NCBI RefSeq assembly: GCF_026898135.2
Contig: NZ_CP114035.2
Coordinates: 1,095,501 to 1,159,500, forward strand
DNA: 64,000 bases
DNA from: Pseudomonas fortuita
GTDB lineage: Bacteria > Pseudomonadota > Gammaproteobacteria > Pseudomonadales > Pseudomonadaceae
Direction of reading: 5' to 3'
In this document: one piece after another, positions 54,825 through 58,642 of the stretch
Numbering within the stretch: position 1 is the stretch's first letter
How the letters are laid out: every line of letters begins with the position of its first letter
The notes under the pieces: model-generated
What the model was told of the DNA's origin: nothing
The model's database searches: none
Seen by the model: the letters and a program-made list of their open reading frames with translations, nothing else
Position numbers and translations under genes: made by a program

Positions 54825-56006
54825 ATGACACGTATCGGAACCCCCTTGTCGCCCACCGCGACCCGTGTACTGCTTTGCGGCTGTGGCGAGTTGGGCAAGG
54901 AAGTGGTGATCGAGCTGCAGCGCCTGGGCGTCGAAGTGATCGCCGTCGACCGCTACGCCAATGCCCCGGCCATGCAGGTCGCGCATCGCAGCCACGTGGT
55001 CAACATGCTCGATGGCGTTGCCCTGCGCGCGGTGATCGAGGCCGAAAAGCCGCACTATATCGTCCCTGAAATCGAAGCCATCGCCACCGCCACCCTGGTC
55101 GAGCTGGAAAATGAAGGTTTCAACGTGGTGCCGACCGCCCGCGCCACGCAGCTGACCATGAACCGTGAAGGCATCCGCCGTCTGGCCGCCGAAGAGCTGG
55201 ACCTGCCGACTTCGCCGTACCACTTCGCCGACACCTATGAAGACTACGCCAAGGCCGTGGCCGATGTGGGTTACCCGTGCGTGGTCAAGCCGGTGATGAG
55301 CTCGTCCGGCAAGGGCCAGAGCCTGCTGCGCAGCGATGCCGACCTGCAGAAGTCGTGGGACTACGCCCAGGAAGGTGGCCGCGCCGGCAAGGGGCGGGTG
55401 ATCGTCGAGGGCTTCATCGACTTCGAATACGAAATCACCCTGCTGACCGTGCGCCACGTTGGCGGTACCACCTTCCTGGAGCCGGTTGGCCACCGCCAGG
55501 AGAAGGGCGATTATCAGGAATCGTGGCAGCCGCAGGCCATGAGCCCGAAAGCGCTGGCCGAGTCGCAGCGCGTGGCCAAGGCAGTCACCGATGCCCTTGG
55601 CGGTCGCGGGCTGTTTGGTGTGGAACTGTTCGTGAAGGGCGACCAGGTGTGGTTCAGCGAAGTGTCGCCGCGCCCGCATGATACCGGCCTGGTAACCCTG
55701 ATTTCCCAGGACCTGTCGCAGTTCGCGCTGCATGCCCGTGCCATTCTCGGCCTGCCGATTCCGGTGGTGCGTCAGTTTGGCCCGTCGGCGTCGGCGGTGA
55801 TTCTGCCAGAAGGGCAGTCGCAACAGACCAGCTTCGCTAACCTGGGCGCAGCACTGAGCGAGCCGGACACGGCCATTCGCCTGTTCGGCAAACCGGAAAT
55901 CAACGGTACTCGCCGCATGGGCGTGTGCCTGGCGCGTGACGAGTCGGTGGAGCTGGCACGGGCCAAGGCGAACCGCGCTTCCCAGGCGGTCAAGGTCGAG
56001 TTCTGA
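54825..56006 (+). CDS. purT: Formate-dependent phosphoribosylglycinamide formyltransferase (PurT)
   Basis: This 393-residue ATP-grasp enzyme makes formyl-GAR from GAR, formate and ATP, an alternative to PurN. It begins with [20 protein letters not shown], and the ATP-grasp domain contains [15 protein letters not shown], the [14 protein letters not shown] strand and [16 protein letters not shown] with Mg2+ ligands. A TAGAAT -10 box lies at 54754-54759 with no evident -35. The long repeat array starts 14 bases after its stop. Confidence 0.95.
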
Positions 56007-56019
56007 TCTGAGACCGTAT

Positions 56020-57063
56020 GGGGCCGCGTTGCGGCCCATTCGCGGGACAAGCCCGCTCCCACAGATCACTCGCAATGCCAGCGGCCTGTGATAATCCTGT
56101 GGGGCAGGCTTGTCCCGCGAATGGCCTCCCACAGATCACTCGCAATGCCTGCAGCCTGTGATGATCCTGTGGGGGCAGGCTTGCCCCGCGAATGGCCTCC
56201 CACAGACCACTCGCAATGCCAGCGGCCTGTGATAATCCTGTGGGAGCGGGCTTGTCCCGCGAATGGCCTCTCACAGATCACTCGCAATGCCTGCAGCCTG
56301 TGATAATCCTGTGGGGGGAGGCTTGTCCCGCGAATGGCCTCCCACAGACCACTCGCAATGCCACCGGCCTGTGATAATCCTGTGGGAGCGGGCTTGTCCC
56401 GCGAATGGCCTCCCACAGACCACTCGCAATGCCTGCAGCCTGTGATAATCCTGTGGGAGCGGGCTTGTCCCGCGAATGACCTCCCACAGATCAATCGCAA
56501 TGCCTGCAGCCTGTGATAATCCTTTGGGGGCAGGCTTGTCCCGCGAATGGCCTCCCACAGACCACTCGCAATGCCTGAGGCCTGTGGCAATCCTGTGGGA
56601 GCGGGCTTGTCCCGCGAATGGCCTCCCACAGATCACTCGCAATGCCAGCGGCCTGTGATAATCCTGTGGGAGCGGGCTTGTCCCGCGAATGGCCTCTCAC
56701 AGATCAATCGCAATGCCTGCAGCCTGTGATAATCCTTTGGGGGCAGGCTTGTCCCGCGAATGACCTCCCACAGATCAATCGCAATGCCAGCAGCCTGTGA
56801 TAATCCTGTGGGAGCGGGCTTGTCCCGCGAATGACCTCCCACAGATCAATCGCAATGCCAGCAGCCTGTGATAATCCTGTGGGGGCAGGCTTGTCCCGCG
56901 AATGGCCTCCCACAGATCAATCGCAATGCCTGCAGCCTGTGACAATCCTGTGGGGGCAGGCTTGCCCCGCGAATGGCCTCCCACAGACCACTCGCAATGC
57001 CTGAGGCCTGTGGCAATCCTGTGGGAGCGGGCTTGTCCCGCGAATGGGCTGCAAAGCAGCCCC
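56020..57063. repeat. Tandem array of 14 REP-like 71-bp hairpin units
   Basis: The sequence CGCAATGCC recurs at 56071, 56141, 56212, 56283, 56354, 56425, 56496, 56567, 56638, 56709, 56780, 56851, 56922 and 56993, giving an exact 71-base period (70 in the first step). Each unit holds CCTGTGGGAGCGGGCTTGTC, then CCGCGAATGGCCTCCCACAG, which can fold (CTGTGGGAG with CTCCCACAG, flanked by GTGAT and ATCAC). The left border is a REP element in the opposite orientation. There are no unique spacers. This fills the 1064 bases between purT and the transporter gene. Confidence 0.97.
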
Positions 57064-57070
57064 GGTCCAC

Positions 57071-58369
57071 TCAAAGTGCGGTATTACGGGTCTCTTTCAG
57101 GCACAGCACGGCAATCAAGCTGATCACCGCCGCGACCGATACATATCCCCCCACCCAGCTCAACCCGCCCATGCTGACCAGCTTCTGGGCAAAGAACGGT
57201 GCCGCCGAGGCGCCGACAATGCCGCCCAGGTTGTACGCCGCCGAAGCCCCGGTATAACGCACGTGGGTCGGGAACAGTTCAGGCAGCAGTGCCCCCATCG
57301 GCGCAAAGGTCACGCCCATCAGGAACAGCTCGATCGCCAGGAACAGCGCCACACCGGCCGTCGACCCCGAAGTCAGCAGCGGCTCCATGGTAAAGCCTGA
57401 GGCTACCGCCAGCAGGCCGCCGACGATAAGCACCGGCTTGCGCCCGTAACGGTCGCTGAGCCAGGCCGACAGCGGCGTCGCCAAGGCCATGAACACCACC
57501 GCGAAGCACAGCAGGCCAAGGAATGTCTCGCGGCTGTAACCCAGCGTGGTCACGCCATAGCTCAGCGAGAACACCGTGGAGATATAGAACAGCGCATAGC
57601 ACACCACCATCGCTGCAGCGCCCAGCAGGGTGGGCACCCAATAGTTGGAAAACAGCTCGAACACTGGCATTTTCACCCGCTCATGGCGGGCGACAGCCTT
57701 GGCGAAGACCGGGCTTTCTTCAAGCTTCAGGCGCACATACAGGCCCACCAGTACCAGCGCGGCACTGAGCAAGAACGGAATACGCCAGCCCCATTCACGG
57801 AACTGCTCGTCGCTGAGCGTCAGGGCCAGGGTCAGGAACAGGCCGTTGGCGGCCAAAAAGCCGATCGAAGGGCCCAGCTGCGGGAACATGCCGAACCAGG
57901 CGCGCTTGCCCTCCGGGGCGTTCTCGGTGGCCAGCAACGCCGCGCCACCCCATTCACCGCCCAGGCCCAGTCCTTGGCCAAAGCGCAGCAGGCAAAGAAT
58001 GATCGGCGCCCACACGCCAATACTGTCATAGCCAGGCAGCACGCCGATGGCCGTGGTAGAGACGCCCATCAGCAGCAGCGAGGCAACCAAGGTCGACTTG
58101 CGGCCGATGCGGTCGCCAAAGTGGCCGAACAGCGCCGAACCCAGCGGGCGGGCGAGAAAGGCGATGCCAAAGGTGAGGAAGGCTGCCAGCATTTGCGCGG
58201 TGCCCGACCCGGACGGGAAGAACACCGGGCCGATCACCAGGGCTGCAGCGGTGGCGTAGACATAGAAATCGTAGAACTCGATGGCGGTGCCGATGAAGCT
58301 GGCAGTGGCGACCCGCGCGGGCGAGTTGACCGGCGCGTCAGGCGCTTCGGCATAGGTGCTGCTTGTCAT
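57071..58369 (-). CDS. MFS transporter, metabolite:H+ symporter (MHS) family
   Basis: This 432-residue inner-membrane transporter has twelve predicted helices, FIGTAIEFYDFYVYATAAAL at the start, and the loop 2-3 motif GHFGDRIGRKSTL. The second loop motif (SDRYGRKPVL) confirms the MHS group, which imports compatible solutes, citrate, shikimate or similar acids with protons. I chose the ATG at 58369, preceded by GGGACC, because it begins a typical N-terminus; the open frame upstream has no family features. Substrate unknown. Confidence 0.9.
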   Translation of the reverse strand: MTSSTYAEAPDAPVNSPARVATASFIGTAIEFYDFYVYATAAALVIGPVFFPSGSGTAQMLAAFLTFGIAFLARPLGSALFGHFGDRIGRKSTLVASLLLMGVSTTAIGVLPGYDSIGVWAPIILCLLRFGQGLGLGGEWGGAALLATENAPEGKRAWFGMFPQLGPSIGFLAANGLFLTLALTLSDEQFREWGWRIPFLLSAALVLVGLYVRLKLEESPVFAKAVARHERVKMPVFELFSNYWVPTLLGAAAMVVCYALFYISTVFSLSYGVTTLGYSRETFLGLLCFAVVFMALATPLSAWLSDRYGRKPVLIVGGLLAVASGFTMEPLLTSGSTAGVALFLAIELFLMGVTFAPMGALLPELFPTHVRYTGASAAYNLGGIVGASAAPFFAQKLVSMGGLSWVGGYVSVAAVISLIAVLCLKETRNTAL

Positions 58370-58642
58370 TGAATAGGTCCCTGACAGTCTGGTCCGGCTC
58401 CATGGGCATGGCCCGCAGCGGCGTGCCGAAAAAAGGCAGGCACGGTTGCGCGGGCGCCGGAGCGTTTTGTTGTTGTGTGCGCACGACTGACGATAGCCCA
58501 AGGGGGGTAGGGGCGGCGCGGGCACTGTTCGGGGTGTTGAAGCAGGACCGCAGGGCGTGTCAGTGGAGCGGACTGGCCGTGGAACGCCGGGTGCGGGTAG
58601 CAGGCGTGGCGGCGGGGCTGGGTAAGCGTGACCCGAGTATAG

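Follow-up and report, generated by a model that had tools for sequence, protein, structure and literature searches.

REPINs are doublets of inverted REPs and are held to be spread by RAYT transposases. Tandem clusters of such elements have been described in other pseudomonads. For Pseudomonas fluorescens SBW25, the portion of Bertels and Rainey (2011, PMC3116915) drawn on here reports 16 ordered clusters of tandem REPINs, the largest of which comprises four REPINs and a REP. It also reports arrays of GI-GIII REPs, with as many as 12 REPs, as well as evenly spaced GI arrays, and proposes for the clusters a second mechanism along with possible roles. Similarly, many pseudomonad GTAG-1 repeats are reiterated in tandem, according to the relevant part of PMC3733652.

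We analyzed a tandem array of 14 REP-containing units between purT and a transporter gene of Pseudomonas fortuita. This array is a further case of the published kind of tandem REP cluster, which is widespread in the genus. In the best reading, it is a VNTR-like and nearly neutral by-product of the biology of REPINs.

Anatomy of the array

The window, i.e. the whole stretch of 64,000 nucleotides that was analyzed, contains the following features at this locus:

54825..56006, plus strand: purT, formate-dependent phosphoribosylglycinamide formyltransferase, the left neighbour (Pfam ATP-grasp, PurT_C)
56020..56037, no strand assigned: hairpin GGGGCCGCGTTGCGGCCC on the purT side, from the sequence
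56039..56064, minus strand: lone inverted REP, the 5′ REP of the presumed founding REPIN, from the sequence
56057..56126, plus strand: unit 1, 70 bp; TCCCACAG is common to unit 1 and the inverted REP
56127..57049, plus strand: units 2-14, 71 bp each, consisting of the TCCCACAG tag remnant, a spacer, a REP and GAATGGCC
57046..57063, no strand assigned: hairpin GGGCTGCAAAGCAGCCCC on the transporter side, from the sequence
57071..58525, minus strand: sugar/MFS transporter ORF, the right neighbour (ORF call; Pfam Sugar_tr, MFS_1)

The transporter ORF and purT are convergent and 1064 intergenic bases lie between them; the true start of the transporter may be internal to its ORF. The REP inside the units is TGTGGGAGCGGGCTTGTCCCGCGAA or a variant of it, and unit 14 ends in GAATGGGC instead of GAATGGCC. 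All 14 repeated REPs have the same orientation, and the inverted REP precedes unit 1. Because the array begins with one inverted REP, this REP and unit 1 together make an ordinary REPIN. As TCCCACAG is the tag end of an inverted REP, each unit combines a complete REP with the tag of a second REP whose palindrome is missing. In other words, the repeated unit is a REPIN minus the palindrome of its 5′ REP, with the tag of that REP retained. An intact REPIN was not found as the repeat unit of the array, units 2-14 having one palindrome and the tag TCCCACAG. Hairpin GGGGCCGCGTTGCGGCCC was found with REPs at other places in the genome too, and the composite of hairpin, REP, spacer, REP and hairpin also occurs in single copy elsewhere in it, for example at two loci (L008 and L012) among the 29 matches listed.

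TRF placed the array at 56056-57047 with a period of 71, 14.0 copies, 91% matches and a score of 1599; the runner-up array in the window scored only 64. The in-register span is 56057-57049, in which unit 1 has one G fewer than the others. The units have 18 variable columns, one of which is this one-base gap.

The original prediction had described near-identical, head-to-tail units derived from REPs, with an exact 71-base period, at 56020-57063 between convergent genes. Both TRF and the register confirmed 14 head-to-tail units, and the ORFs and Pfam matches of the two neighbours agree with the location. Derivation from REPs was also upheld, as the REP 25-mer has 173 + 172 copies in the genome at up to two mismatches and the reversed control has none. 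The exact period holds for 13 of the 14 units but fails for unit 1. "Near-identical" has to be read as a mean of 5.9 pairwise differences per 71 bp, ranging from 1 to 12. The predicted interval does contain the array, but it also includes the two flanking hairpins and the one inverted REP, which are unrepeated.

The purT site in relatives

Named genomes with purT were scanned, the best 80 loci were retained and 11 of these were inspected in detail. Among the 11, five (L067, L068, L070, L073 and L075) have a single REPIN at the purT site and four (L069, L071, L072 and L074) are REPIN-free. The site of L077 has two REPs that are arranged differently, and L066 has a REP at the start of the site. 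The contigs of L066 and L140 stop 179 and 272 nt past purT, respectively, short of the transporter, and both were excluded from judgement. Over the best 80 loci, the longest match to the array was 107 bp (L068). A survey of 29 further relatives gave a 48-bp match in one (L051) and zero in the rest. When the DNA of the array was compared with 199 genomes of the genus, its own included and with at most two candidates scored per genome, its own copy was the only one at E ≤ 1e-20.

History of the units

All four combinations of variants were present in 26 of the 78 pairs of informative columns, which requires exchange between units or repeated mutation; recurrent mutation could be the source of some of these pairs. 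Unit columns 48 and 51 covary in all 14 units, A occurring with G in seven and G with A in seven. The REP with the second combination (G with A), GGGGGCAGG, has three exact copies in the genome, all inside the array. Allowing one mismatch adds three copies in the array and ten outside, and only one of the latter (at 1716117) carries that combination. Being almost confined to the array, this REP suggests that the units evolved mainly with each other. Given the mosaic of variants and a REP allele found almost nowhere else, the probable processes are slippage, conversion or unequal recombination acting locally. A recombination hotspot, one of the roles suggested earlier for the array, is consistent with this mosaic, which falls short of proof. 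A duplication of a six-unit block was also considered but is not claimed, because the signal (P = 0.025 at lag 6 alone) was not significant over seven lags (P = 0.10).

Our explanation starts from one REPIN, which would first have stood in the space where purT and the transporter gene converge, a state that several relatives show. This REPIN would then have been duplicated in tandem, with the DNA just beyond the 3′ REP fused to the tag/palindrome boundary of the 5′ REP, and the product would be the 71-bp unit, in which a complete REP is accompanied by the tag of its partner. The later growth to 14 copies and the shuffling of variants may reflect hairpin slippage together with conversion or unequal recombination among the units. 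The anatomy, the one-REPIN and REPIN-free relatives, the mosaic units, the almost array-confined allele, the other arrays in the genome and genus and a RAYT-type gene with this REP class on both sides are the basis for this origin. We consider it probable that the array derives from a REPIN by tandem duplication followed by slippage or recombination and has no special function. We infer ordinary replication and recombination as the cause.

Tandem REP arrays in the genome and the genus

The genome has at least six further tandem REP arrays:

L309:202-1409 (about 3562801-3564008): 148 bp × 8.2, unit with two inverted REPs, 1208 bp
L308:398-1290 (about 3053097-3053989): 230 bp × 3.9, REPs in the unit, 98% matches
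L029:1523-1742: 73 bp × 3.0, tag kept and palindrome lost as in the 14-unit array
Elsewhere in the genome: 167 bp × 2.4, REP in the unit
Elsewhere in the genome: 418 bp × 2.0, REP in the unit
Elsewhere in the genome: 95 bp × 2.0, REP in the unit

The first of these is longer in bases than the 14-unit array.

Three head-to-tail copies of the array's own REP class at its own spacing were found in three of the 398 genomes searched: its own (13 matches), G306 (two) and G292 (one). With a general Pseudomonas REP pattern, head-to-tail pairs 25-55 bp apart occurred in 126 of the 398 genomes and pairs 56-86 bp apart in 97; the reversed controls gave 0 in both searches. Of 60 loci taken from both pair searches, 32 contain a tandem array whose unit includes a REP (31 by an alternative rule); the loci are a partial sample, with one per genome and pair search. 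Among these arrays, copy numbers were 14.0 here, followed by 10.2 (L228, period 72), 9.4, 8.9, 7.4, 7.1 and 7.0. One array (L264) exceeds the present one in length (1154 vs 992 bp). A series of five REPs exactly 72 bp apart, with at most three mismatches, occurred in 11 of 30 genomes that had been selected mostly for high pair counts, and arrays read in this set reach 10.6 and 11.8 copies.

Arrays of head-to-tail REPs with a 72-bp period were especially plentiful in one genome (G175), several of them with 8-12 copies. This genome has 85 + 67 pairs of the 25-55 bp spacing class.

The original prediction had called an array of this length exceptional. At the level of the genus this was not borne out, given the number of genomes with head-to-tail pairs and the arrays of up to 11.8 copies. 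Fourteen is the top copy number among the arrays read, in a partial sample of one locus per genome. As tandem REP arrays are many in both the genus and this genome, the present array is long, but it is one of many. These results correct the notion that Pseudomonas seldom has long arrays of head-to-tail REPs.

Function

The array has more copies than any other array that was read, which leaves room for selection. A selected element would have many hairpins or gyrase sites that part the two transcripts, shield the 3′ ends of mRNA or relieve supercoiling. As far as the cited portions of PMC1525189 and PMC2817692 go, REPs often lie between convergent genes, bind gyrase and IHF, stabilise mRNA and are not specific terminators. 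Selection is favoured by the convergent neighbours and by these published links of REPs with sites between convergent genes, with gyrase and with the stability of mRNA. On the minus strand, moreover, the pairs of the REP stem are kept in 68 of 69 cells when G-U is allowed. Under the same rule, however, the minus-strand tag stem keeps 101 of 112 pairs (11 breaks) and the inner stem 65 of 70, and the plus strand breaks 8 of 69 pairs in the REP stem (61 kept) and 11 of 70 in the inner stem (59 kept), keeping 110 of 112 in the tag stem. This uneven record of stem pairing gives no argument for selection at the RNA level. Five T-run terminator-like sites were found, none of them inside the array, which speaks against a selected element, as does the statement in the cited part of PMC1525189 that REPs are not specific terminators. 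Besides, one REPIN or none suffices in relatives. We therefore regard a selected element as unlikely.

Other searches were also negative. No promoter-like sites were found in 55000-58600; gyrase binding, a multi-hairpin RNA and a transcription roadblock, also suggested earlier for the array, are candidate roles. The IHF consensus WATCAANNNNTTR, which is based on E. coli and would mark an IHF-binding spacer between REPs of the BIME-1 type, had 0 matches in the window; the test is weak because only 0.23 matches were expected by chance. With Rfam, nothing reached the gathering score, and three matches to microRNA models gave 21-28.9 bits against gathering scores of 100-110. These sub-threshold matches lie on the hairpin of the founding REPIN and were taken as look-alikes, so that a microRNA precursor was rejected. 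A protein-coding array was rejected as well, since the 187-aa minus-strand ORF of the array has no match in Pfam and the 71-bp period shifts the frame from unit to unit.

Given the REP literature and these negative searches, general REP effects are the most to be expected. By analogy, any effect would be that of REPs between convergent genes generally, on the 3′ ends of mRNA and perhaps through gyrase. There is no pointer to a new function in what was seen.

Break points and RAYT

The junction with the tag kept and the palindrome lost is also present in L029 of the same genome and in L198 (68 bp × 5.0), L199 (69 × 3.0) and L205 (104 × 2.0). A search with the junction pattern gave matches in 74 of 398 genomes, although it catches other REP arrangements too and the reversed control gives a few. 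Among 20 such places picked by eye, four were tandem arrays, three of them of the tag-kept type. Comparatively, the 32 arrays that were not selected by their junction included two of the tag-kept type (the 14-unit array and L229), 13 with both palindromes and 17 without a second REP; these classes were assigned by a simple text rule, which labels L308 "A" despite the palindrome before the tag in its unit. A fixed rule placing the break point at the tag/palindrome boundary was therefore rejected, being seen in only two of these 32. Break points vary among arrays, so we claim no rule.

One observation concerns L198:471-810 (G290), where five units of about 68 bp have the anatomy of the 14-unit array with a different REP class and spacer.

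Could a RAYT have copied the units instead? Single-stranded DNA would be cut beside a REP, and a circle of spacer and REP would be copied by rolling circle to lay the array. A comparable model is published in the part of PMC2817692 drawn on here, and the cited text of PMC8266576 states that the E. coli enzyme cleaves at CT 5′ or 3′ to the REP. Both works, to the extent cited, leave a role of the transposase in the origin of arrays possible. In the 14-unit array, CT is present in both partners of the junction, as GGGC|TGC past the 3′ REP and CCGC|TCCC in the 5′ REP; the base before the junction CT is C where both parental sequences have G, which counts against our own explanation, as it demands a further substitution. 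Four Y1_Tnp (RAYT-type) loci above the cut-off were found in the genome (L032, L033, L034 and L035), and the RAYT-type gene of L033, at 377302-377622 of the genome, has the REP class of the array on both sides. However, L029, an array of like anatomy in the same genome, does not fit a CT-to-CT join; the break point recurs in only two of the 32 arrays discussed above; and diverged, mosaic units are unlike one burst of equal copies. Amplification by a RAYT is thus improbable for this array.

The REPs adjoining L033, L034 and L035 belong to different classes. Those of L034 and L035 resemble the classes Pput2 and Pput3 as these appear in the cited part of PMC2817692.

Similarly, we think it improbable that tag-kept arrays in general are produced by RAYTs, with one REP cut where its tag meets its palindrome, a second cut just beyond the other REP and the array extended in place by rolling-circle copying, so that the array would be a visible intermediate of REP amplification. 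The tag-kept anatomy in five arrays from four genomes (two here, L198, L199 and L205) is compatible with it. If a RAYT is the copying agent, such arrays would offer a direct test bed for the long-open question of how REPs multiply.

It is very unlikely that the copy number is an artefact of assembly: tandem repeats of about 1 kb are difficult for short reads, but the genome is a single contig of 6,311,744 bases and the units carry distinct variants without simple order, which argues against collapse or inflation of the array during assembly, and similarly built arrays are present in other assemblies.

Comparison with known systems

As a REP VNTR of 14 copies with distinguishable units, the array may serve as a marker and as a model for the gain and loss of REP array copies and for the involvement of RAYTs. 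It has the features of a tandem REP/REPIN cluster, namely a REP class abundant in the genome, near-identical and evenly spaced units, derivation from a REPIN (the inverted REP before unit 1 and the one REPIN in relatives) and a putative cognate Y1_Tnp RAYT gene flanked by the same REP class (L033).

BIME-2 of E. coli is likewise an intergenic, tandem, REP-based array. However, BIMEs alternate the orientation of their REPs, as given in the cited parts of PMC2817692 and PMC8266576, and no alternation was found within the repeated unit here, the 14 repeated REPs all facing one way.

The 72-bp arrays of the genus (for example L218, L235, L285 and L312) likewise have one REP per unit and the same orientation throughout, with 7.4-11.8 copies in these four. 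They differ in their spacer, and those of their units that are classed C are without trace of a second REP.

The clusters of P. fluorescens SBW25 (Bertels and Rainey 2011, PMC3116915) also differ, within what the cited portion covers. They have other REP classes and another unit sequence, and the largest has 12 REPs, compared with 14 same-way REPs and one inverted REP here; the present unit, unlike theirs, retains the tag of the lost 5′ REP. The likeness is that both are ordered, head-to-tail series of near-identical REP units, and that some of the SBW25 clusters, as here, consist of evenly spaced REPs of one class.
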